58,750 bases of DNA from Clostridia bacterium (GTDB lineage: Bacteria; Bacillota; Clostridia; Christensenellales; Borkfalkiaceae), in contig JAGAIW010000091.1 in assembly GCA_017626305.1 (NCBI GenBank), positions 1-58,750 of the forward strand, given 5' to 3'. Each line of letters opens with the position of its first letter. Position 1 is the first letter of the stretch. Of the stretch, positions 25,987-54,157 are shown one piece after another. Both the position numbers and the translations under genes were made by a program. The notes beneath the pieces are model-generated. The model did no database searches and was not told the origin of the DNA. It worked only from the letters and a program-made list of their open reading frames with translations.

Positions 25987-28146
25987 ATGAATAGTTTGAA
26001 AAATATACGAAAAAAGAGCGTCGTTTGCTTGACGCTGCTCTGCGTATGGGGAATGACCGCTTGCGGCGGCAATCCCCAAAACGATTTTTTAGGCGACGTC
26101 GTTACCCGCGAAGACTTCCGCTCGGTTTACGGTGAAATCGGCAAAGACGTTACCGTGGATATGGTAACCGAATGGGACGGCTTGGCATACGTGAACGTAA
26201 ACGGAAAAGAATACGAGCTCGGCATGGATTTTTTATCTATGGCAATGGTATATAACACGACGCCGTCGGGGAGCTTTGACACGGCGGAAAAAGCGTACAA
26301 CGAATGGTGGCGATTGTTCATGCAACGTTGGAATTATCTCGTGCCCGAAGCGCCGCTCTATTCCAACCAGTACTACGACGTATATAATGCGAAAATCGAT
26401 AAATTAGACACAAACCCGTACTGGAACGTTGCCGCGGCAATCGTCGGGGCGAAAGTGGTGTCGGGCGAGAACGCCGTGGCGCTTGGCAGTAATACCGAGC
26501 TTTCGGGGCTTTTCCGTAACGCGTCGTTTGGAAAATCCATACCAGGGGCGGCAGACCTTGCCGTGCAGGAGCTTACGAGTGGATATTCTACCGTAGCGAC
26601 GGATAAGGACGGCAATTACGTTTGGGCGGGGAAGGACGTTTTGCTTTGGCATACGCAAACGGATAATGCGGACGGAACGAAAACGTTTACCTTCCATATC
26701 GCGGACGACCTTGTCTTTTCAGACGGTTCGCCCATCACGGCGGAAAATTATCTCGTTTCCTTGCTGGCAGGGAGCACGAAGGTTATGAAAGAAGCAGGCG
26801 GCAACGACGCGGCGGGGTTGACGGTGGTAGGCTATGAAAGCTTTTCCGCCTACGACGGCACGGGCGAGTCCGTTCCCTTTTCAGGCGTGCGGCTTTTGGA
26901 TAAGCACACCTTTTCGGTGACGGTGAAAAAGGAATACGCGCAGTATTATTACGCTATGCGTTACGGGGAATTTTCGCCTATGCCTACGGCTTTGTATTTG
27001 GGGGAAAACGTCGTTTTGGACGACGGTGACGGCGCGTATATTACCAAGGATTTTTATAAACGGACAGAACAAAACGGTATTCAAACGTACGCCATGGCAA
27101 AGGTGATAGAAAGAAACGTACGCGAAACGTCGTCCACCGTTTTTCCGTACGCAGGGCCGTACTACGTCGAACGCTACGACGCAAGCGAAAAGACGGCGGT
27201 ATTGAAACGCAATCCAAAGTATAAAGGGGATCACCGCGGTAAAGCGCAAATCGATAGAATTTCGTACGTTAAAATGGTCGCGGAAACGCAGCTTGACCAG
27301 CTGAAAAAAGGCAGAGTGGACGTTTTGGCGTCGGTGACAGGCGGGGAAGAAACGCGCGCCGCGCTTGCGGTGGTGGATAACGTGCGTTTTAAGGAAAATC
27401 ATTACGATAGGGCGGGGTACGGCAAGCTTGCCTTCCGTTGCGATTTTGGTCCAACGCAGTTTGCGCAGGTTCGCCGCGCCGTCATGCACACGCTCGATCG
27501 CGCGGAGTTTGCCCGTACGTTTACGGGCGGTTACGGTAGCGTGGTGCACGCGCCCTATTACGTGGGCTCGCCTGCCTATAAGGCGGTTGCGGATAGCATG
27601 CGCCTAGACGCGTACGAATACAGCGTGGATAAGGCGATAGAGTGTTTGGAAGACGGCGGCTTTATTTATAACGTTAAGGGTGAGCCCTATGAAGGACGGG
27701 GCGTGCGCTATAAAAAGCTGTCGGGATATGAAAAGAGTTATTCTAATTTGGCGTTTGCGTCCACCGATAATAAGTATAAAACGGTGAAGGTGGACGGGGA
27801 ATATTATATGCCGCTCGTAATCAACTGGATGGGTACGCAACCCAACCCCGTAACCGATCAACTGATTACTTCGTGGCAAAACAACCCCAACGCGGGCGAA
27901 AAAATCGGCGCGTATATCACCTATACGTCGGGGGATATGACTTCCGCGCTTTACGGAGAATACTATCAAATGCCTGCGTATGGGTTTACCAAAGCTCGTT
28001 TTGGCGCGGTCAACTTTGCCACGGGCTTTACGGGTGCGGCATACGATCAGTCCTTTTCATGGACGATTGACCCTGCCATGTACGCGCAGTACAGTAGTAA
28101 CTTTTTGCAGGATAAGGCGGATTTTTATCAGGAATATGATGGGTAA
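25987..28146 (+). CDS. Peptide-binding lipoprotein, OppA/SBP_bac_5 family
   Basis: A 719-residue extracellular solute-binding protein. It has a lipoprotein signal peptide with the lipobox MTAC (Cys26), then GGN. Family segments include TFTFHIADDLVFSDGSPITA and, later, KRNPKYKGD and RRAVMHTLDRAEFARTF. It is larger than typical OppA (about 540-600). It is the first gene of a complete oligopeptide/dipeptide-type transporter and its end overlaps the next gene by about 8 bp. The ribosome site is weak and no convincing promoter was found. Ligand class (peptide or nickel-like) is inferred from family only. Confidence 0.9.
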   Translation: MNSLKNIRKKSVVCLTLLCVWGMTACGGNPQNDFLGDVVTREDFRSVYGEIGKDVTVDMVTEWDGLAYVNVNGKEYELGMDFLSMAMVYNTTPSGSFDTAEKAYNEWWRLFMQRWNYLVPEAPLYSNQYYDVYNAKIDKLDTNPYWNVAAAIVGAKVVSGENAVALGSNTELSGLFRNASFGKSIPGAADLAVQELTSGYSTVATDKDGNYVWAGKDVLLWHTQTDNADGTKTFTFHIADDLVFSDGSPITAENYLVSLLAGSTKVMKEAGGNDAAGLTVVGYESFSAYDGTGESVPFSGVRLLDKHTFSVTVKKEYAQYYYAMRYGEFSPMPTALYLGENVVLDDGDGAYITKDFYKRTEQNGIQTYAMAKVIERNVRETSSTVFPYAGPYYVERYDASEKTAVLKRNPKYKGDHRGKAQIDRISYVKMVAETQLDQLKKGRVDVLASVTGGEETRAALAVVDNVRFKENHYDRAGYGKLAFRCDFGPTQFAQVRRAVMHTLDRAEFARTFTGGYGSVVHAPYYVGSPAYKAVADSMRLDAYEYSVDKAIECLEDGGFIYNVKGEPYEGRGVRYKKLSGYEKSYSNLAFASTDNKYKTVKVDGEYYMPLVINWMGTQPNPVTDQLITSWQNNPNAGEKIGAYITYTSGDMTSALYGEYYQMPAYGFTKARFGAVNFATGFTGAAYDQSFSWTIDPAMYAQYSSNFLQDKADFYQEYDG

Positions 28147-29161
28147 ATATATTGTTAAGCGGCTATTGTATATGCTAGTGACAATGTTGATTTTATCGCT
28201 AGTTATCTATCTTGTATATAATCTTATTCCCGTGGATAAGGCGGCGGATATGGCTTTGCAGGAGATTGCCGCAAATAAAAATTTAAACTATGCGGAACGG
28301 TATCTTTACTGGCAACGTCGATACGGCCTTGACGGGAATATCTTTGTTCGCTATTTGCGTTGGCTGGGACTTGCGCCCTTTTACGACGGCGCGTTCAAAG
28401 GGTTGTTGCAAGGCAATTTCGGGACTTCGCTCACCTACGGAAAGCCCGTATGGGAAGTGGTCAAAGAACCGCTTTTAAATACGCTGTTTCTCAATTTGTT
28501 TGCGACAACTGCGGCGCTGGGGATTACTCTGCCGCTTGGGATTTTTTGCGCCGAGAAACGGGGGAGTAAGCGTGACGCCGCCGTGCAGGTAGGGACGATT
28601 GTGGGGTACAGCCTACCCACCTTTATCGTAGCGATTTTATTCATTTGGTTGTTTGCCATCCGCTTGAATATCTTTCCCGTTTCGGGTATGTCGTCGGTGG
28701 GGAAAGACTATACGGGCATACGCGCGTTTTTGGATAGATTGTATCATTTTGCTTTGCCCCTTATCGTGATGACCTTTTGTTCACTTGGCGGTATGACCCG
28801 TTACGTACGCGCGGCAATGACCGAAGCGTTATCGCTTGATTGTATCCGTACGGCAAAGGCTAAGGGATTGCCTAAACGGCTCGTCGTGCGCTCGCACGCG
28901 TGGCGGAACGCGCTTATCCCGATTATTTCGCTTGTGATAGGGTGGTTGCTTGGCGTGTTTTCGGGGTCGATTATGATTGAAAACGTGTTTGGCATTAACG
29001 GTTTGGGGAAGGTGTATTTCGACGCTTTAACGACCAACGACAACGAAGTGGCGCTTGCTATGCAAATGTTTTATATCCTGCTTGCGCTTGTGGGGAATTT
29101 GCTCGTCGATATCGCGTACGGCTTGGTTGACCCGCGTATTCGCCTTGGGGGAAAGGTATGA
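28139..29161 (+). CDS. oppB: Peptide ABC transporter permease, OppB/DppB type
   Basis: A 340-residue permease with six predicted helices. The N-terminal MGKYIVKRLLYMLVTMLILS is the usual DppB start. The cytoplasmic EAA-like loop that contacts the ATPases is in CIRTAKAKGLPKRLVVRSH. ATG28139 is preferred over ATG28136 because the AGG upstream is then better spaced. Its stop overlaps the start of the next permease (ATGA), so the two are translationally coupled. Confidence 0.92.
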   Translation: MGKYIVKRLLYMLVTMLILSLVIYLVYNLIPVDKAADMALQEIAANKNLNYAERYLYWQRRYGLDGNIFVRYLRWLGLAPFYDGAFKGLLQGNFGTSLTYGKPVWEVVKEPLLNTLFLNLFATTAALGITLPLGIFCAEKRGSKRDAAVQVGTIVGYSLPTFIVAILFIWLFAIRLNIFPVSGMSSVGKDYTGIRAFLDRLYHFALPLIVMTFCSLGGMTRYVRAAMTEALSLDCIRTAKAKGLPKRLVVRSHAWRNALIPIISLVIGWLLGVFSGSIMIENVFGINGLGKVYFDALTTNDNEVALAMQMFYILLALVGNLLVDIAYGLVDPRIRLGGKV

Positions 29162-31071
29162 ACCGTAAACAGCAAAACGTCTTTCAAAGAGCATTTCACG
29201 CTACCATGTATGCGTTCAAGCGTATAGGCGTATGGATAAAACGGGCGTTTATCGGGAAACGCTTGGAAGGGCTGGACGGGCAAATCGAAAGTCCGTCGCG
29301 TCTATTAAAAGAAAATTTTTTTGCCAAAAAGTCGGCGGTGGCGGCTTTGTTTGTGCTTGTCGCGTTGTTTTTGTTTGTGTTTATCGCGCCGCTGTTCGTG
29401 CCCATGGACGTCAACTACACCGACGCCCTGCAACAAAATTTAGCGCCCACCTATTCCCTTTGCTCCGTGCCGAAAAAGCTGCGCGGCTCGGTGCGCTATA
29501 TCGACGGTTTTTCGGGGTTTACGATAGGTGTTTCAAGGCAAGGTGAGCTCTTCGTTTGGGGGGCGAGTAAAGACCGCTTACAAAAGACGGATTTAAAAAA
29601 AATTCCCGATAGCGTGCAACGCGAAGGCGTGGCGTTTGCGGCGGCGGGGAAAGACCATATCCTTGCCGTCACCAAAAACGGCAAGCTCGTCGGCTGGGGG
29701 GATAACAGCTGCGGACAGTATTCCACGTCTCCCGTGCTTAACGCGCTCCCCATGCCCGATTTTTCGTCGGGAATAGAGCTTGGCAGCGTGCGTTCGCTCG
29801 TATGCGGATATCAAGTGTCCGCGTTGGTGTACGCGGACGGCAGCGTGCAGGCATGGGGAAACGTCAACGCCGTTAAAAATTTATCGGCGATAAACGGTAT
29901 GCAAAACGTGCAAAGCGTTTGCTTTACCAACGCCGCCGCTATCGCGTTGCTTGCCGACGGGAGTGTATCGACGGGCGGGGAGCATTTATTCCAAAGCGCG
30001 TACAGCTTGCGGGAAGGCAGAGTATCGTGGGCGAGTTATTTGCAAAATAAACGGGTGATGGGCTTAACGGCGACGGGAAAATGCGTTTGTGCGTTGACCG
30101 AAGATTACGACGTGGTGGTTGCAGGGGCGATTGAAAACGGGGAGAACGAATTCCCTAACCTTTTGGACGGGGAGTATTTTACCGTTGTAGACGGCGGCGC
30201 GCGGCATTTTGTCGGGGTTACTAACCTAGGCAACGCGTACGGTTGGGGACATAACGCTTATGGACAATGCAAGCTTTCTTTCAAGGGGGAAAGCGCGCAA
30301 GCGTTTGCAGGGGCTATGCAATCGTATATAGTCAATGGAGAAGGTAAATTAGTCCAAACCGCAGGGCTGAAAGGGTATCTGATGGGCACGGACGGACGGG
30401 GACGGGACGTCTTTGCGCGTATCGTCCACGGGGGCAGAATGACCATGACGGTAGGGGCGGTAGCCGTCGTGATTTCGTCCTTGATTGCCGTTATCGTCGG
30501 TTGCTTGGCAGGGTATTTCGGCGGTGTCGTCGATACGCTGTTAATGCGCGTTACGGAAATATTTTCGTCTATCCCGTTCTTGCCGTTTGCCATGCTTTTA
30601 TCGCAGGTCATTCGCTATTACGACGTGTCCGAAGGTATGCGCATTTTTATCATTATGCTCATTTTAGGCGCGCTGTCTTGGACGGGGCTTGCGCGTATGC
30701 TGCGCGGACAAGTGCTTGCCGAACGGGAAAAGGAATTCGTTACGGCGGCAAAGGCGGTAGGCGCAAGCCCGTTACGGGTGGCGTTTCGCCATATCCTGCC
30801 TAACGTCGTTTCGGTGATTTTGGTGAGTATGACGTTGGACTTTGCGGGCTGTCTTTTGACGGAATCGTCGCTGTCGTATTTGGGCTTTGGCGTGCAACCG
30901 CCTCAACCCACTTGGGGGAATATGCTCAACGGCAGCAATAATAGTACGGTGATACAAAACTACTGGTGGCAATGGCTGTTTCCGTCGCTCTTTTTATCGC
31001 TTGCCGTCATTTGCATCAACGTCGTAGGCGACGCTTTGCGTGACGCGCTTGATCCGAAAAACAGCCGATAA
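29158..31071 (+). CDS. oppC: Peptide ABC permease OppC-type with inserted RCC1-like beta-propeller
   Basis: A 637-residue protein, about twice normal OppC length. Residues 1-57 are cytoplasmic and 58-82 form the first helix; NLAP (94-97) is where a normal OppC would go straight to the GTDGRGRD motif, here at 410-417. In between, residues about 100-403 (29455-30366) form seven RCC1-like repeats, with blade motifs GELFVWG 129, GKLVGWG 175, GSVQAWG 228, GSVSTGG 278, YDVVVAG about 327, GNAYGWG 368 and GKLVQTAG 396. The remaining five helices and the EAA loop (AAKAVGASPLRVAFRHILPN) are normal. The propeller would face outside the membrane. Confidence 0.92.
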   Translation: MNRKQQNVFQRAFHATMYAFKRIGVWIKRAFIGKRLEGLDGQIESPSRLLKENFFAKKSAVAALFVLVALFLFVFIAPLFVPMDVNYTDALQQNLAPTYSLCSVPKKLRGSVRYIDGFSGFTIGVSRQGELFVWGASKDRLQKTDLKKIPDSVQREGVAFAAAGKDHILAVTKNGKLVGWGDNSCGQYSTSPVLNALPMPDFSSGIELGSVRSLVCGYQVSALVYADGSVQAWGNVNAVKNLSAINGMQNVQSVCFTNAAAIALLADGSVSTGGEHLFQSAYSLREGRVSWASYLQNKRVMGLTATGKCVCALTEDYDVVVAGAIENGENEFPNLLDGEYFTVVDGGARHFVGVTNLGNAYGWGHNAYGQCKLSFKGESAQAFAGAMQSYIVNGEGKLVQTAGLKGYLMGTDGRGRDVFARIVHGGRMTMTVGAVAVVISSLIAVIVGCLAGYFGGVVDTLLMRVTEIFSSIPFLPFAMLLSQVIRYYDVSEGMRIFIIMLILGALSWTGLARMLRGQVLAEREKEFVTAAKAVGASPLRVAFRHILPNVVSVILVSMTLDFAGCLLTESSLSYLGFGVQPPQPTWGNMLNGSNNSTVIQNYWWQWLFPSLFLSLAVICINVVGDALRDALDPKNSR

Positions 31072-31099: not shown

Positions 31100-32143
31100 A
31101 TGAACGAAAATAATCGGTTGTTGGACGTACGCGATTTACGCGTACGTTTCCATACCCGTAAGGGCTCGTTTTATGCGGTAGACGGCGTTTCCTTTTCGCT
31201 TTTAGAAGGGGAAACGCTGTGCGTCGTGGGGGAAAGCGGTTCGGGAAAAAGCGTTACCGCCATGAGCGTTTTACGCCTGTTAGACGAAAACGGCGCAATC
31301 GAAAACGGAGAGATTTTATTTACCTTTGACGGGCAAACGCTTGACCTTGCTAAGCTGGGCGAAGAAGATTTGAGAAGGCTCCGCGGTAACCGTATCGCCG
31401 TCGTCTTTCAAGAGCCCATGACGGCGCTAAACCCCGTGTTTACCGTGGCAAGACAGCTGTGCGAACCCTTGCGCTTGCATAGAAATTACACCAAAAGCCA
31501 AGCGCTGGACGTAGCTAAGGAATTACTGATTAGCGTGCGCATTGCCGAGCCCGAGCGCGTTTTGCGCAGCTATCCGCACCAGCTTTCTGGCGGTATGCGG
31601 CAACGGGTGATGATTGCCATGGCGCTTGCCTGCCGACCTAAGCTTTTGATTGCGGACGAACCGACCACCGCTTTGGACGTATCCGTACAGGCGCAAATTT
31701 TGCGGTTAATGAAGGAATTACAAGCGAAACAGAGTACGGCGGTGCTTTTAATCACGCACGATTTGGGGGTGGTGAACGCCGTCGCCGACCGCGTTGTGGT
31801 CATGTACGGCGGCGTGGTGGTGGAAGACGGCGTCAAAGCGGATATTTTCAAGCAGGGCAGGTATTCCCATCCCTACACCGAAGGGCTGTTCGCCTGTTTG
31901 CCTGAAAACCAAAAAAAAGGCGAGCCGATTGCCTGTATCCAAGGTAACGTTCCGCACCCCGCCAACGTACCGAAAGGCTGTCCGTTTTGTACGCGGTGCA
32001 GTTATTGCACGCAGGAATGTATGGATAAGCGACCGCCTTTAACCGAACGGGAAGACGGACACCGTATCGCCTGTTTTTATGCGGACGTGAAAATAAGAAG
32101 GAGCAAAGCGCATGCCAAACGTATTGTCGATTGTCGGGCTTAG
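31100..32143 (+). CDS. oppD: Peptide ABC transporter ATPase, OppD type
   Basis: A 347-residue ATPase. It has Walker A GESGSGKS, Q-loop VVFQEPMTALNP, signature LSGGMRQR and Walker B LLIADEP. The C-terminal oligopeptide-transporter domain has four cysteines (CPFCTRCSYC...C), which may bind a metal or cluster. Start ATG31100 is chosen (domain begins LLDVRDLRVRF); ATG31091 is also possible. The 3' end overlaps oppF by 32 bp. Confidence 0.93.
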   Translation: MNENNRLLDVRDLRVRFHTRKGSFYAVDGVSFSLLEGETLCVVGESGSGKSVTAMSVLRLLDENGAIENGEILFTFDGQTLDLAKLGEEDLRRLRGNRIAVVFQEPMTALNPVFTVARQLCEPLRLHRNYTKSQALDVAKELLISVRIAEPERVLRSYPHQLSGGMRQRVMIAMALACRPKLLIADEPTTALDVSVQAQILRLMKELQAKQSTAVLLITHDLGVVNAVADRVVVMYGGVVVEDGVKADIFKQGRYSHPYTEGLFACLPENQKKGEPIACIQGNVPHPANVPKGCPFCTRCSYCTQECMDKRPPLTEREDGHRIACFYADVKIRRSKAHAKRIVDCRA

Positions 32144-33389
32144 AAAATATTTCCCCGTCAAGGGCGTAAAGAAAATTTTGCGCGCCGTGGACGGGGTAAC
32201 GGTGGATATTCAAAAGGGCGAAACCTTTTCTATCGTAGGGGAAAGCGGTAGCGGAAAATCTACCTTGGGAAGAACGGTGCTTGGACTATATCCCGCTACG
32301 GACGGCGAAGTGCTGTATCGGGATACCGATATTTGGAAACTTCGTCCCCGTTACGTGCAAAAAATACTCAAAAATGCGTATACGTATCGCAAAAAATATG
32401 CCAAACTCGTGGAAAAAGGGGAAGAGTTAAACGGGAAAATCCGTACCGCCGCGCGCGTGCTTGGCGGGCTTTTATGTGTGGACGAGCAGGCTTTTCAAGC
32501 AGGGTTATACTCTTTGCAAAGCGGGGATAGACGCTTGCTTTTAGACGTCAAAAGACGATACGAAGGCAATAAAGAATTTCAAAAATTAGACGCGCTGTTT
32601 GATAGCGGCGTGGATATCACCAAACTTACGGAGAGAGAACTTCGCACGTTGCGAAAGGATTTACAAATCGTGTTCCAAGACCCGTATTCGTCGCTTGACC
32701 CGCGTATGACGGTAGGACAAATCGTCGCGGAAGGGGTTCTTTTGCACGGCGTAGCAAAAAAGGAAGAATTGCAAAAATACGTGGCGGACGTATTACAAGC
32801 CTGTGGCTTGCCGCCACAGGTCATGCACCGTTATCCCCATCAATTTTCGGGCGGTCAACGCCAAAGGGTGTGTATTGCGCGCGCGCTTGCGCTTAAACCT
32901 AAGCTAATCGTTTGCGACGAGTGCGTGTCCGCTTTGGACGTTTCGGTACAGGCGCAAATACTCAATCTTTTAGCTGACTTAAAAAAAGAACGGGGCTTGA
33001 CCTATCTTTTTATCTCCCACGATTTGTCCGTGGTGGAGCATATTTCGGATAGGATAGCCGTTTTGTATCTTGGGAAAATCGTAGAGCTTGGCACTTCGCA
33101 GCAGGTAATGAAAGAACCGCGCCATCCGTACACCGTCGCGCTTGCCGCCGCCGCGCCTAAGGTGCGGGGCGAAGGGGAGCTTTTGCCTTTGCCTGCGCAA
33201 ATAGAAGGCTTGCGGGAAACGCACGGCTGTCCGTTTGCGCCACGCTGTTTTATGGCGCAGGAACGTTGTTTTGAGAGAGTGCCGCCGTTTGCCGATTGCG
33301 GCGACGGACATTTTGCGGCTTGCCATTTTGCAGGACAACCTGCCTTTGAGAAGAAAGAACGGTTAAAAAACGCGCAAAAGGGGGAATAA
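32112..33389 (+). CDS. oppF: Peptide ABC transporter ATPase, OppF type, with insertion
   Basis: A 425-residue ATPase, against about 320 for normal OppF. Walker A GESGSGKS is at 43-50, Q-loop IVFQDPYSSLDPRMTV near 185, signature FSGGQRQR, Walker B LIVCDE, and the C-terminal cysteine-containing domain follows. About 90 extra residues (75-165), rich in Lys, Arg and predicted helix, lie between the GEVLY strand and GVDITKLTERELR. AAGGAG eight bases before ATG32112 fixes the start. No terminator follows clearly. Confidence 0.92.
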   Translation: MPNVLSIVGLRKYFPVKGVKKILRAVDGVTVDIQKGETFSIVGESGSGKSTLGRTVLGLYPATDGEVLYRDTDIWKLRPRYVQKILKNAYTYRKKYAKLVEKGEELNGKIRTAARVLGGLLCVDEQAFQAGLYSLQSGDRRLLLDVKRRYEGNKEFQKLDALFDSGVDITKLTERELRTLRKDLQIVFQDPYSSLDPRMTVGQIVAEGVLLHGVAKKEELQKYVADVLQACGLPPQVMHRYPHQFSGGQRQRVCIARALALKPKLIVCDECVSALDVSVQAQILNLLADLKKERGLTYLFISHDLSVVEHISDRIAVLYLGKIVELGTSQQVMKEPRHPYTVALAAAAPKVRGEGELLPLPAQIEGLRETHGCPFAPRCFMAQERCFERVPPFADCGDGHFAACHFAGQPAFEKKERLKNAQKGE

Positions 33390-49991: not shown

Positions 49992-52307
49992 ATGAAAAAG
50001 AGAATGATACGAATCATGAGTATAATGCTTGCGTGCTTTGCGGCGTTTGCGGCGGGGTGTAACGACGGGGCGGGGAGTGTAAAAGACAGCTCGTCCATGG
50101 AAGAGAGTACGGCGCTTGGTTCAAGTGAAGACACGTCGAGCAGCGAAGAAGACAGCAGCAGCGAAGATAGCAGCGGCGAAGATAGCAGCAGCGGCGACAA
50201 GGAAGACGAGCTGTATTTTCCCGAGTACGAGCCAGACGCCGCGCCGACGGAAAAAATCACGGTGCAACCGGCGCAGATTGCGTCGGGGACGGCTCAGACG
50301 TTCCGCGTTGCGTTGGATAAGGACGGCAAGGCGTGGTGCTGGGGGGATAACAGCTACGGTCAGATAGGCAACGGCGAAGAAACGACGACAGCGTACGACG
50401 CGACGGCGTTCACGCCGCAGGCGGCGCAAACGGACGCGCGGTTTGTCAGCGTATCGGCGGGCGCGCGGCATGCGCTTGCCATTGATAAAGACGGCGGATT
50501 ATGGGGCTGGGGTACTTTTGATTCCCCTACGTCGGAAAGCATTTGGGGCGAAGAAACCTTTACGACGCCCCAACGGCTTTTGACGGGCAAACAATGCGTG
50601 TATGCGGAAGCAGGTACGTACTGTTCGTTTATTATTGATACGGCAGGTAAATTATGGGCGTGGGGAGAGAATAACGGCGGTCGTCTTGGCGACGGCACGA
50701 CGAATGATGCGGATACGCCGATATGGGTGGTAACGGACAAACGGTTTGTTTCCGTATCGTCTTGTTCCAGCGTAACGTACGGGATAGATACGGACGGACA
50801 TTTATGGGGCTGGGGCAACGCTCGTAATGGCTTTGGCGACGGAACGACGGGGACGCACTTGACCCCCGTGGCAATTATGCCCGAAAAGAAATTTGCGCAG
50901 ATATCCACAAACTCCTTTTGTACGTATGCCTTGGATGAGAACGGTAATCTTTGGGGTTGGGGCTCTAATCCGAAAGGACAGCTGGGGGACGGGACGAAGG
51001 AAACGCAAACCGCCGCCGTGCCCATAATGGCAGGAAAATATTTTACTTACGTAGAAATTGACGAGTTAAATACGTATGCAATAGACGTGCAAGGCAAGCT
51101 GTGGGCGTGGGGCTATGGAAATGAAGTAGATTTTTTAAATATGAAATATTATCCCCAACACGTGCCGTTTGATGGGAAAATCGTGCAGGTGTCCGAAGGG
51201 CTTGCCTTAGACGAAAACGGCGAGCTTTGGACTTGGGGTAGTAACGTAAACGGAGAAGTGGGGGACGGCGTAACGCAAAATGTCCTTACGCCTACGCACG
51301 TGTTTACCGATATGCGTTTTTCTAAGGTGGAAAGCACCACGGGTACTACGTATGCTATTGATACAAATGCTGGACTTTGGATATGGGGTAGCGGTTCTCT
51401 GCATAACACGGAAAATTCCTTACAACAAATTATGCCTGAGAAGAAATTTAAGGAAATAACACTACATGGCACAGCGGCATATGCAATCGATATAGATGGT
51501 GGGCTTTGGTTTGTGGATGTGGAAAACTCCGCGCAAATCATGCCTGATAGAAAATTTATGAAGGTGGCTGCTGGAACTGGTTTTACTCATGCAATAGATA
51601 TTTACGGCAATCTTTGGGCATGGGGAACTGGTGGAGATGGTTGCCTTGGTCTTGGAGATGGTATCCATCGTCAGGATACGCCTGCGCAGGTACGGGCTGG
51701 TGTCAAGTTTGTGGAGATAGAAGCGGGATATAATTACGTTGCTGCCATTGATGTAGACGGTAACTTCTGGGGCTGGGGCAATAATAAAGGCGGTCGTTTG
51801 TCGGTTTCTGAGCACAGATATGTGATTTATACGCCTGTACAATTCAGAAAAGGAATCGCTTTTTCACAATTGACATTTATGAAAAGAGCTTCCGCCATAG
51901 AGGCAGGCAATTACGCAATCGATAATAATGGGAAATTATACGGGTGGTGTGCTTATCAGGATATGCTTGATTATCATTCGGAGATATATTGGGAAGAAAA
52001 AACATTTTCTTCTGTTTCAACTGGGTACGTGCATGCGCTTGCCATAGATACGGACGGACGGCTGTATGCATGGGGGTATAATAGTCACGGTGAGCTTGGC
52101 GTAGGCATGAAGGGCGATAAAGTACATATACTTCATTATCGAACGGTTATGCAAGATAAAAAATTTACTTGTGCCGTGGCATCGTCGTTCAATTCTTCAC
52201 TTGCCATAGATACAGACGGTAAATTATGGGCGTGGGGAAATAATAAATTTGGGCAGCTGAACGGTGTACAACCGCAAATGATACCGAAAAAATTGAATTT
52301 GGCATAA
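49992..52307 (+). CDS. RCC1-repeat surface lipoprotein, about 14 blades
   Basis: A 771-residue lipoprotein: signal peptide with lipobox AAGC (Cys23), a Ser/Glu/Asp-rich linker (about 29-73), then RCC1 repeats to the end. Fourteen blade motifs can be counted, including GKAWCWG, GGLWGWG, GKLWAWG, GHLWGWG, GNLWGWG, GELWTWG, AGLWIWG, GGLWFVD, GNLWAWG, GNFWGWG, GKLYGWC, GRLYAWG and a final GKLWAWG. That number suits two seven-bladed propellers. Many blades also carry GQLGDG. It resembles the propeller inside the OppC permease at 29158. An AAAGGAG site precedes the ATG. The 3' half appears more AT-rich than the 5' half. Confidence 0.9.
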   Translation: MKKRMIRIMSIMLACFAAFAAGCNDGAGSVKDSSSMEESTALGSSEDTSSSEEDSSSEDSSGEDSSSGDKEDELYFPEYEPDAAPTEKITVQPAQIASGTAQTFRVALDKDGKAWCWGDNSYGQIGNGEETTTAYDATAFTPQAAQTDARFVSVSAGARHALAIDKDGGLWGWGTFDSPTSESIWGEETFTTPQRLLTGKQCVYAEAGTYCSFIIDTAGKLWAWGENNGGRLGDGTTNDADTPIWVVTDKRFVSVSSCSSVTYGIDTDGHLWGWGNARNGFGDGTTGTHLTPVAIMPEKKFAQISTNSFCTYALDENGNLWGWGSNPKGQLGDGTKETQTAAVPIMAGKYFTYVEIDELNTYAIDVQGKLWAWGYGNEVDFLNMKYYPQHVPFDGKIVQVSEGLALDENGELWTWGSNVNGEVGDGVTQNVLTPTHVFTDMRFSKVESTTGTTYAIDTNAGLWIWGSGSLHNTENSLQQIMPEKKFKEITLHGTAAYAIDIDGGLWFVDVENSAQIMPDRKFMKVAAGTGFTHAIDIYGNLWAWGTGGDGCLGLGDGIHRQDTPAQVRAGVKFVEIEAGYNYVAAIDVDGNFWGWGNNKGGRLSVSEHRYVIYTPVQFRKGIAFSQLTFMKRASAIEAGNYAIDNNGKLYGWCAYQDMLDYHSEIYWEEKTFSSVSTGYVHALAIDTDGRLYAWGYNSHGELGVGMKGDKVHILHYRTVMQDKKFTCAVASSFNSSLAIDTDGKLWAWGNNKFGQLNGVQPQMIPKKLNLA

Positions 52308-52414: not shown

Positions 52415-54157
52415 ATGAAAAAAATAACTAAAAAAAGAATAATGGCAGTTTTATCAGCGGCTACGGTGTTACTTACTTCGGGTGTAGGTACGGGGATATC
52501 TTTGAACGCGGCAAAAGCAGATAATGCAACTTCGGCAACGGTTATCGTAGACGAACCGTTTACCGATTTGAATATCTTGACAAGGACGAAGGGTTCTTAT
52601 ACGGCAGATATGGTGTATACCATGATATACGATACCTTATTTACGCTGGATGCAAATGGGAATTTTGCGCCCAACTTAGTGGAAACTTGGGAAATTATTG
52701 CCGAGGGCGGATATAGTAGCTGGTCGCCGTTAGAACTTCCGAGTGGAGAGTTTGCGCCGGGGTGGGAAGTACCGCCTGAATTTGTAGATCTTGCTATATA
52801 TGACACAAACGTCACGGGTATTATGATTTGCCAAATTCTTGAAGGCGTTACTTTTCAAAACGAAACACCATTGACGGTTGATAGTTTGATTGCGTTGGTT
52901 AATTATGCCAAGGCGCAGCCAACGAATACGCTGATTTACCAAACCTGGGCGCCCGTTACCATTACGTATATTGATGATTATACGTTTGTGTTGGGGGTAA
53001 ATATGGTAAATTATAATATTGGCTTTATTGACGTGATGTTTAATTTGGCGTCGCCGCAGGGCAGTATCGTTGACGTTGGTGAATTAGGAAACGGAGCGGC
53101 AGGATATCCCCTTGGTACGGGCGCGTATACGCTTGAAGAAATTGTAACCGAATCTACGGGAGACACCACGGAATGTTATGCCGTTGAGCTTGAACGTTGG
53201 GCAGGTTGGCGGAATGTGACAGAAGTTCCTACGCAATACGTAACCTTTGAATACGTTGAAAACTCGAATGATGCAGAAATGGGAGTGAGAAGTGGCGACG
53301 CGGCGGCTGCGGTTGTGCGTGATACTATTTATAACAACCAAGAACTATTCTATTATTGGAGACGAAATGATGAATGGGAAGAAAAGAGAAAATATTATGC
53401 TCTTGAAGGAAATCCTTTGGCGTTGTACTTTAATTTGGATTCCGAAGAGAGCATATTTGGCATAACCGAATATAGACAAGCGGTAGCGGCAGGTATGGAT
53501 AAAGTTATTTTCCGTGAAAGCGGTGGTTTAGATTTTGATTCGAATGGTTTTTGGTGTTATTTACAAAATAGTCATTCAACTACGGATATACCCGTAAACA
53601 ATATGAATTATGCGCAATCTTTAATCGAAAGTGCCGGGGTGATTATCGGCGGTATTCAAATTGACGTGGTTGTATATGACGATAGCTATTTTGCCAACGA
53701 AACGGCGTATCAATATTATTGCAGCGTACGCGATACGTTGCGCGATTACTTGGAAGAATTGTTCAGCTATGTCGTTAACGTGAATATGATAGAAGCTAGT
53801 GAAAGTCAAATGGCGACGTATGAAAGTAACGGCAATTACGATATTATGCTGAAAGAAATCGATTTACATAATATCAATTCTGCGCACAAGACTCTCTATG
53901 GAAAGGGCAGCGACGATATCGACTATTGGCTGGATATTGCTGCACGTGCGTTAGATATAAATACGTATATGTTATTGCATTTGCAAGCGCAATATTATAA
54001 TTATGCGGAAGAGTCATACGTTACCAACCTTGGTTGGCAGAAGCGTGCGTTGCTTTTGCAAGACAACGTAAGCGGCGTTGAGCCGTATGAAGGGTTCTGC
54101 CCGACGGGGAGTTCGTCGCGGTTGGATTTCCGTTTTATTGAAGTGACGACAAACTGA
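52415..54157 (+). CDS. Peptide-binding protein, SBP_bac_5 family, no permease nearby
   Basis: A 580-residue exported protein: signal peptide (KKRIMAVLSAATVLLTS...) probably cut after AKA at about residue 36, with no lipobox cysteine. The remainder follows the OppA fold (TVIVDEPFTDLNILTR, MIYDTLFTLDANGNFAPNL, then GVTFQNETPLTVDSL and EYRQAVAAGMDK). It follows the RCC1 lipoprotein by 107 bp with its own AAAGGAG site. No transporter genes are adjacent, so it may serve the permeases at 28139-31071 or others. Sequence is visibly AT-richer than most of the window. Confidence 0.88.
   Translation: MKKITKKRIMAVLSAATVLLTSGVGTGISLNAAKADNATSATVIVDEPFTDLNILTRTKGSYTADMVYTMIYDTLFTLDANGNFAPNLVETWEIIAEGGYSSWSPLELPSGEFAPGWEVPPEFVDLAIYDTNVTGIMICQILEGVTFQNETPLTVDSLIALVNYAKAQPTNTLIYQTWAPVTITYIDDYTFVLGVNMVNYNIGFIDVMFNLASPQGSIVDVGELGNGAAGYPLGTGAYTLEEIVTESTGDTTECYAVELERWAGWRNVTEVPTQYVTFEYVENSNDAEMGVRSGDAAAAVVRDTIYNNQELFYYWRRNDEWEEKRKYYALEGNPLALYFNLDSEESIFGITEYRQAVAAGMDKVIFRESGGLDFDSNGFWCYLQNSHSTTDIPVNNMNYAQSLIESAGVIIGGIQIDVVVYDDSYFANETAYQYYCSVRDTLRDYLEELFSYVVNVNMIEASESQMATYESNGNYDIMLKEIDLHNINSAHKTLYGKGSDDIDYWLDIAARALDINTYMLLHLQAQYYNYAEESYVTNLGWQKRALLLQDNVSGVEPYEGFCPTGSSSRLDFRFIEVTTN

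Follow-up and report, generated by a model that had tools for sequence, protein, structure and literature searches.

RCC1-like repeats inserted in the OppC permease of a putative clostridial oligopeptide importer, with a circularly permuted OppA

We describe an Opp/Dpp-type ATP-binding cassette (ABC) importer, probably of oligopeptides to judge by its family annotation, encoded in a 58,750-nucleotide stretch of DNA from a Clostridia bacterium of the family Borkfalkiaceae (contig JAGAIW010000091.1 of assembly GCA_017626305.1; hereafter the window). Its OppC permease carries about 300 residues of RCC1-like repeats in the loop between the first two transmembrane helices (TM1 and TM2), an insertion gained once on the tree of the transmembrane domain (TMD). 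The binding protein encoded beside it, OppA, is circularly permuted, a rearrangement that arose once on the OppA tree, and the ATPase OppF has an insert of its own. On the sequence evidence we consider it somewhat probable that the repeats form a propeller which holds OppA, and that OppA was re-tethered in one subclade of these operons.

The repeat region of OppC, its spread and its history

A first reading of the stretch, made from its letters alone (the original prediction), had placed about 300 residues of RCC1-like repeats inside an OppC-type permease, between TM1 and a GTD..GRD motif, and this is borne out. All nine motifs that it cited are where it put them (NLAP at residues 94-97, GTDGRGRD at 410-417, and seven blade motifs), although NLAP, which it had equated with the first helix, comes after that helix. 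The blade motifs begin at residues 129, 175, 228, 268, 317, 358 and 396, with spacings of 46, 53, 40, 49, 41 and 38 residues. The two permease halves are intact, as had been claimed, each scoring above its Pfam cut-off in the domain order of OppC/DppC: OppC_N at residues 52-97 (33.9 bits, cut-off 23.9) and BPD_transp_1 at residues 444-635 (119 bits, cut-off 26.4). The solved OppC 8z21 aligns with residues 405-635. RCC1_2 also matches the protein (67.7 bits, cut-off 22), and WD40_RLD, the "RCC1-like domain", does so below its cut-off (79.3 bits against 150). Where OppC/DppC permeases usually have a short extracellular segment between TM1 and TM2, the protein of the window has its repeats, and with 304.9 bits against the nearest NCBIfam model, Opp4C (curated cut-off 350), it falls outside that equivalog.

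Profile comparison shows the seven repeats to be homologous, well above chance. Blade columns taken from a 73-row alignment (A1, which includes the window and omits L026, L032, L064 and L070) were compared by profile, and all 21 pairs scored between 14.5 and 60.7, the lowest being blade 4 against blade 7, whereas column-shuffled controls reached at most 8.8 (n=42) and TMD segments at most 2.7 (n=12). Searched against the PDB, the A1 profile found OppC 8z21 (2e-73) and solved RCC1 propellers such as HERC2 (2e-47) and UVR8; RCC1 and BLIP-II are also among the solved chains reached by profile. Alignments to the RCC1 proteins recur over short local segments, chiefly from blades 2 and 3, and none of those seen covers all seven blades. 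The region is predicted to close into a seven-bladed propeller, and we refer to it by that name. An NCBIfam scan of the propeller gave no family for the window and one weak FtsQ match in one of 37 members. A simple hydropathy scan, which recovered five of the usual six helices, found a single helix at residues 63-81 behind an N-terminus (residues 1-61) of net charge +9, and no stretch of helix strength in residues 98-404, a topology that places the propeller likely outside the membrane.

The combination of BPD_transp_1 with RCC1 repeats, whose spread the original prediction had proposed to trace, is present in the genus, order, class and phylum samples and in named isolates. Full-length matches to this OppC occur in 34 of the 57 genomes of the genus, with relatives 49-69% identical, in 26 of 251 genomes of the family sample and 25 of 297 of the order sample (E 1e-80), and in 13 of 291 and 9 of 299 genomes of the class and phylum samples (E 1e-75); several genomes, the window's own among them, occur in more than one of these samples, and forms that have diverged further would escape these thresholds. 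Among the best 80 loci from a scan of named genomes, at least 47 (L081-L127) carry the propeller form, whole or cut by contig ends, and in L128-L160 the match is essentially confined to the permease part (beginning at residue 315 in L131). By their record names, the 47 listed comprise 38 Clostridia, 4 Tissierellia, 3 Erysipelotrichia, one Treponema metagenome-assembled genome (MAG) and one Anaerolineaceae MAG; records that are not MAGs include Butyrivibrio sp. AE2015, Falcatimonas sp. MSJ-15, Clostridium sp. Cult1 and Anaerococcus sp. Marseille-Q5996. The propeller OppCs of the Anaerolineaceae MAG (L098, 8001-9815) and the Treponema MAG (L111, 1003-2691) may be there by transfer or mis-binning, and that of an Erysipelotrichaceae MAG (L112, 1040-2782) has one in-frame stop and is a pseudogene or a sequence error. 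In alignment A2, made of 44 propeller rows and 4 trimmed propeller-less controls, 44 of the 48 rows match OppC_N, RCC1_2 and WD40_RLD and all 48 match BPD_transp_1 (E 0.001); left out of it were L112 (internal stop), L118 and L119 (contig end) and L120 (match spanning two genes).

A tree built from the TMD alone has 111 rows, of which 97 carry a propeller and 14 do not; it is rooted on 13 propeller-less rows and omits L112, L118, L119 and 24 same-genus rows. It calls for a single change to account for the propeller, whose clade has a support of 93. None of the 14 propeller-less rows falls within that clade, a count in which losses may have been missed because propeller rows were collected by full-length matches. 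The nearest relative of the clade is the propeller-less L128 (a Mollicutes MAG), a long branch, with about seven residues (by eye) between the segments that flank the repeat region in the window. That RCC1-like repeats sit in an intact, conserved permease is supported, with low ratios of nonsynonymous to synonymous substitution rates (dN/dS) in three of the four closest pairs: the four gave 0.16, 0.16, 0.41 and 0.10 for the propeller and 0.13, 0.09, 0.16 and 0.03 for the TMD. In three more distant of the 14 pairs (the run omitted L041) the propeller gave 1.11-1.18 and the TMD 0.65-0.84, at distances where dS is unreliable.

RCC1_2 matches two proteins only in the window's genome, OppC and a protein of 771 residues (49992-52307) with RCC1 repeats and what by eye looks like a lipoprotein start, which is followed by a family-5 binding protein gene (52415-54157). 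A recent origin of the propeller from this second gene is unlikely, because the genus's 56 other genomes gave no match to it at E 1e-60 while the OppC form spans the phylum sample. In another genome (G035; L167, 1201-4522), a 536-residue RCC1-repeat protein (by eye) stands beside an apparent extracellular binding protein of another type. Two same-genus OppCs of 641 residues (L162, 2269-4194; L164, 606-2531) have a different insert of about 330 residues in the same TM1-TM2 loop, with weak MAM matches below cut-off (E 0.05 and 0.009), and the ATPase beside each is 748 residues long with an insert of its own. The loop may accept different domains.

A permuted OppA and an enlarged OppF

OppA of the window belongs to the family-5 binding proteins (SBP_bac_5, 115.4 bits, cut-off 32.4), and the segment that ends its canonical relatives sits near its N-terminus, after a lipoprotein-like signal, which would provide a lipid anchor, and a linker. 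A hidden Markov model (HMM) built from 17 canonical OppAs of propeller operons aligned its positions 562-634 with window residues 80-158 (independent E-value, iE, 4e-18) and its positions 48-560 with residues 158-710 (iE 1e-134). Thus the chain does not follow the canonical order, either of the HMM or of the solved OppA 9p48, in which the homologous segment lies at residues 502-559 of 562; in the comparison with 9p48 two matches were strong (3.5e-21 and 3.5e-8) and the N-terminal part was weak (iE 0.15). The order is swapped in all 16 proteins typed as permuted that were compared with this HMM (the window and 15 relatives), and a converse HMM was swapped in 20 of 20 canonical ones. Before the HMM comparison, OppAs had been typed by the order of BLAST matches, many by the tail alone, which gave a state for 94 of 124 loci (46 permuted, 48 canonical), the remainder being L061, left undecided, and 29 loci without an OppA in view. 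A permuted OppA of 787 residues also stands at L188 (3920-6280), where the surrounding 14 kb that were searched contain nothing matching OppB-OppF.

On a tree of the OppA common core (45 rows) the permuted proteins form one clade (99/98) with seven canonical rows as its sister. In this sister group the loop where the cut would later fall is enlarged (by eye), a plausible first step to permutation. About 75 residues separate the cut from the canonical C-terminus. Published systems are cited here from excerpts of the papers, by PubMed Central number. In the binding protein AliD, domain III (lobe 2) comprises residues 297-582 and residues 583-617 alone return to domain I (PMC11192437); leaving the C-terminal extension of AliD aside, a cut about 75 residues from the end would therefore fall in lobe 2. 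This assignment goes by residue count against AliD rather than by alignment, because our HMM aligned only residues 91-186 and 207-331 of E. coli OppA and left its C-terminal part unaligned.

The operon itself is conserved: a binding protein, a B permease and two ATPases accompany OppC in the window and in its relatives, in the order A-B-C-D-F wherever the flank extends far enough (A-B-C-F-D in L117). The positions of the parts in the window are collected in the table. The start of oppC sits within the stop codon of oppB (ATGA), and the top NCBIfam model for OppB is Opp4B (234 bits, under its cut-off of 450). The original prediction called the neighbouring oppA, oppB, oppD and oppF genes complete, which holds for their reading frames; two of them are not ordinary, OppA being permuted and OppF having an insert of about 95 residues. 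Between Walker A and Q-loop, OppF of the window has 137 residues, where ten OppFs from eight propeller-less loci have the standard 42-43, and the distance is 140-242 residues in 39 of the 41 operons in view. OppD has no insert (51 residues in the window, 47-52 in 46 of 46 operons). For the OppF of L120, Pfam gives weak matches to P-loop families that run into the insert, and in one PDB alignment shown the insert is unaligned. As DppC pairs with DppF in E. coli (PMC12136057), the insert would by homology be on the ATPase that pairs with the C subunit.

Table. Parts of the oppABCDF operon in the window
Feature	Position	Strand	Evidence or remark
oppA	25987..28146	+	family-5 substrate-binding protein, lipoprotein-like start (by eye), circularly permuted; SBP_bac_5
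OppA relocated segment, residues 80-158	26224..26460	+	corresponds to C-terminal ~75 residues of canonical relatives
OppA remainder of fold, residues 158-710	26458..28116	+	canonical HMM 48-560, iE 1e-134
oppB permease, 340 residues from ATG at 28139	28139..29161	+	BPD_transp_1 and BPD_transp_1_N
oppC with inserted RCC1-like repeats, 637 residues	29158..31071	+	intact open reading frame
OppC_N region with TM1, residues 52-97 (helix 63-81)	29311..29448	+	PF12911, 33.9 bits; hydropathy
RCC1-like seven-repeat region, residues 105-404	29470..30369	+	blade-pair profiles; PDB profile matches UVR8, HERC2, BLIP-II
BPD_transp_1 transmembrane core with EAA-type coupling segment (by eye), residues 405-637	30370..31068	+	Pfam, 119 bits; OppC 8z21
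oppD ATPase, no insert, Walker A to Q-loop 51 residues	31100..32143	+	
oppF ATPase, 425 residues, carries insert	32112..33389	+	
OppF insert between Walker A and Q-loop, about residues 72-166 (ends approximate, by eye)	32325..32609	+	

What the propeller may do

We propose that an RCC1-like propeller was inserted once in the extracellular TM1-TM2 loop of OppC, where it would most likely serve as a docking platform that keeps the lipid-anchored OppA over the pore by contacting its lobe 2. Later, in one subclade, OppA would have been permuted at a loop of lobe 2, so that the lipid anchor exits from lobe 2 and not lobe 1, and this would turn the tether towards OppC. AmiC is a B-type and AmiD a C-type permease of the pneumococcal importer Ami. 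In an AF-Multimer model of Ami, AmiD touches lobe 2 of the binding protein with the coil between its TM1 and TM2, and the AmiC extracellular domains have been suggested to clamp the protein (PMC11192437); in E. coli DppB a scoop after TM1 enters the cleft of DppA (PMC12136057), and MalF-P2 contacts MalE (PMC3150292). Since these elements all engage binding proteins, a propeller in the TM1-TM2 loop of OppC would be well placed to hold OppA.

The divergence of the parts points the same way. In partial Mantel correlations over 32 loci, with TMD divergence removed, propeller divergence correlated with that of OppA at 0.64, the OppC N-region at 0.43, OppB and OppD at 0.30 each and OppF at 0.18 (all p 0.001-0.003 by permutation test). 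Judged by the size of these correlations, the propeller tracks OppA more closely than OppB, OppD or OppF. The value for OppA was 0.81 in the 14 permuted loci and 0.50 in the 18 canonical ones (0.35 with more controls), against 0.51 and 0.38 for OppB. This suits direct contact between propeller and OppA without proving it. As for the claim of the original prediction that the propeller sits outside the membrane and faces the binding protein, its first part is likely on topology, and its second has indirect support from the AmiD model, known from an excerpt, and from this co-divergence. Gating, docking and the selection of substrates, the roles it had offered, are candidates.

Several observations weigh against the docking platform. 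Many propeller operons have a canonical OppA, so that a propeller can function without the permutation, and elsewhere there are OppCs that lack a propeller altogether. The co-divergence is significant for every subunit and considerable for the OppC N-region; it is weaker in canonical operons, and OppB too stands high in permuted ones, so a shared fast tempo of exposed proteins could produce the excess of OppA. The tree of OppC requires two changes for the permuted state, by way of a weakly supported branch (85); we take the OppA tree as the better witness for the history of the permutation. The OppF insert is missing in L114 (50 residues from Walker A to Q-loop) and in a close relative of the window, L081 (46 residues), and in two propeller-less operons of the window's own genome (L002 and L003) OppD has 113 residues there, so that such ATPase inserts are neither tied to propellers nor confined to OppF. 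A more ambitious, tentative reading, which we hold with rather less confidence than the docking platform, is that the three features would form a coupled device, in which the outer propeller receives OppA, the OppF insert may report or gate the contact, and the OppA tether leaves from the lobe facing the propeller. If so, and we put this forward with the same reserve, the whole OppC-OppF half would have been rebuilt, making a distinct subclass of peptide importer.

Other roles for the propeller have to be set against docking. RCC1 propellers are general protein-binding folds, and this one could be a receptor for something other than OppA (the cell wall, a surface protein, or a host or diet polymer) that places the importer where peptides are released. 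Such a receptor would suit the lower conservation of the propeller relative to the TMD (mean distance 0.65 versus 0.38), a genome whose second RCC1 gene encodes a 771-residue protein with a lipoprotein-like start, and the animal-gut samples named in many of the 47 listed record titles. We nevertheless regard it as unlikely, given that of the compared subunits OppA tracks propeller divergence most closely and that the titles of some carriers (Clostridium sp. Cult1, Tissierellia MAGs) name no gut source. BLIP-II, a secreted seven-bladed RCC1-like inhibitor, suggests a further role, in which the propeller would bind or inhibit an enzyme such as a peptidase or penicillin-binding protein and so feed or protect the peptides of OppA. 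BLIP-II is indeed among the profile matches (1.2e-38), and three loci have an M20-type peptidase-like gene (by eye) in their flanks. UVR8 and HERC2 are better matches, however, and there is therefore no special kinship to BLIP-II; nor is any neighbour gene conserved around the operon, since the 388 open reading frames outside it in 42 loci form no more than three clusters that occur in three loci each (ThiF-, HAD- and M20-like by eye), which thus give no lead on the substrate. Enzyme binding appears to us improbable.

We give no more credence to a tolerated passenger or spacer with no specific partner. The propeller evolves faster than the TMD, an unrelated insert occupies the same loop in the OppCs of L162 and L164, and dN/dS exceeds 1 in the three of 14 pairs whose distances make estimates unreliable; these fit a passenger, but the values of 0.16, 0.16 and 0.10 in three of the four closest pairs, if less so the 0.41 of the fourth, do not, and no propeller-less row lies inside the propeller clade, subject to the losses that full-length collection may miss. 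The window's assembly has 189 contigs, which might raise the thought of an assembly chimera or a mis-called gene; the same architecture in independent assemblies, including records that are not MAGs, refutes this, and its probability is practically nil.

Relation to known importers and propellers

The original prediction had found the architecture unfamiliar among described transporters. In the literature searched, which left out most subscription journals, we found no description of a propeller in an importer permease, but extracellular add-ons on such permeases are already known. The nearest mentions of RCC1 concern RCC1-like proteins of Hepatoplasmataceae, not a transporter (PMC10928387), and a domain-network legend that names RCC1 and also lists binding-protein and permease domains (PMC2950845). 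The same literature, with the same gap, held no description of a permuted OppA, the sole relevant permuted binder being TpMglB-2. If the docking platform is right, the system would be a natural case in which a peptide importer acquired a docking domain whose fold is known, and in which the partner binding protein was later re-tethered once by circular permutation; and since canonical and permuted OppAs occur in closely related sister operons, the role of tether position in ABC import is directly testable. For annotation, a canonical-order model splits permuted OppAs into two pieces, and a propeller OppC is easily taken for a fusion artefact.

With the RCC1 superfamily (UVR8, HERC2, RCC1, BLIP-II) the OppC repeats share their seven homologous units and profile matches; they differ in being embedded in a membrane transporter, their closure into a ring being predicted. 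The fold and loop of MalF-P2 differ from those of the OppC propeller, to which it is likened by description and not by sequence. It is likewise an extracytoplasmic permease domain (residues 91-271) that contacts a binding protein (PMC3150292). The DppB scoop is also periplasmic, follows TM1 and engages the binding protein, at a position to which that of the OppC propeller corresponds, but has about 30 residues and is on B, not C (PMC12136057). In Ami, large extracellular add-ons (ECD1 and ECD2) of a peptide-importer permease are likewise modelled as clamping the binding protein; they are on AmiC, the larger of the two permeases, AmiD has mainly a coil, and the excerpt makes no mention of a propeller in the AmiC domains (PMC11192437). 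The glucose-binding protein TpMglB-2 is a natural circular permutation of an ABC-importer binding lipoprotein, like OppA of the window, and its authors raise the possibility that tethering favoured the permutation; it is, however, a Type I/Cluster B sugar binder in which N-lobe strands near the N-terminus moved near the C-terminus (PMC4990184), whereas in the family-5 OppA a C-terminal segment moved to the N-terminus. Given the add-on domains of MalF-P2 and AmiC, the class of solution is not new. We file the system as a variant of Opp/Dpp importers, with whose OppC/DppC permeases (PF12911 + PF00528) it shares the domain order, the operon partners A, B, D and F and the alignment to 8z21, and from which it differs by a propeller of about 300 residues in the TM1-TM2 loop.

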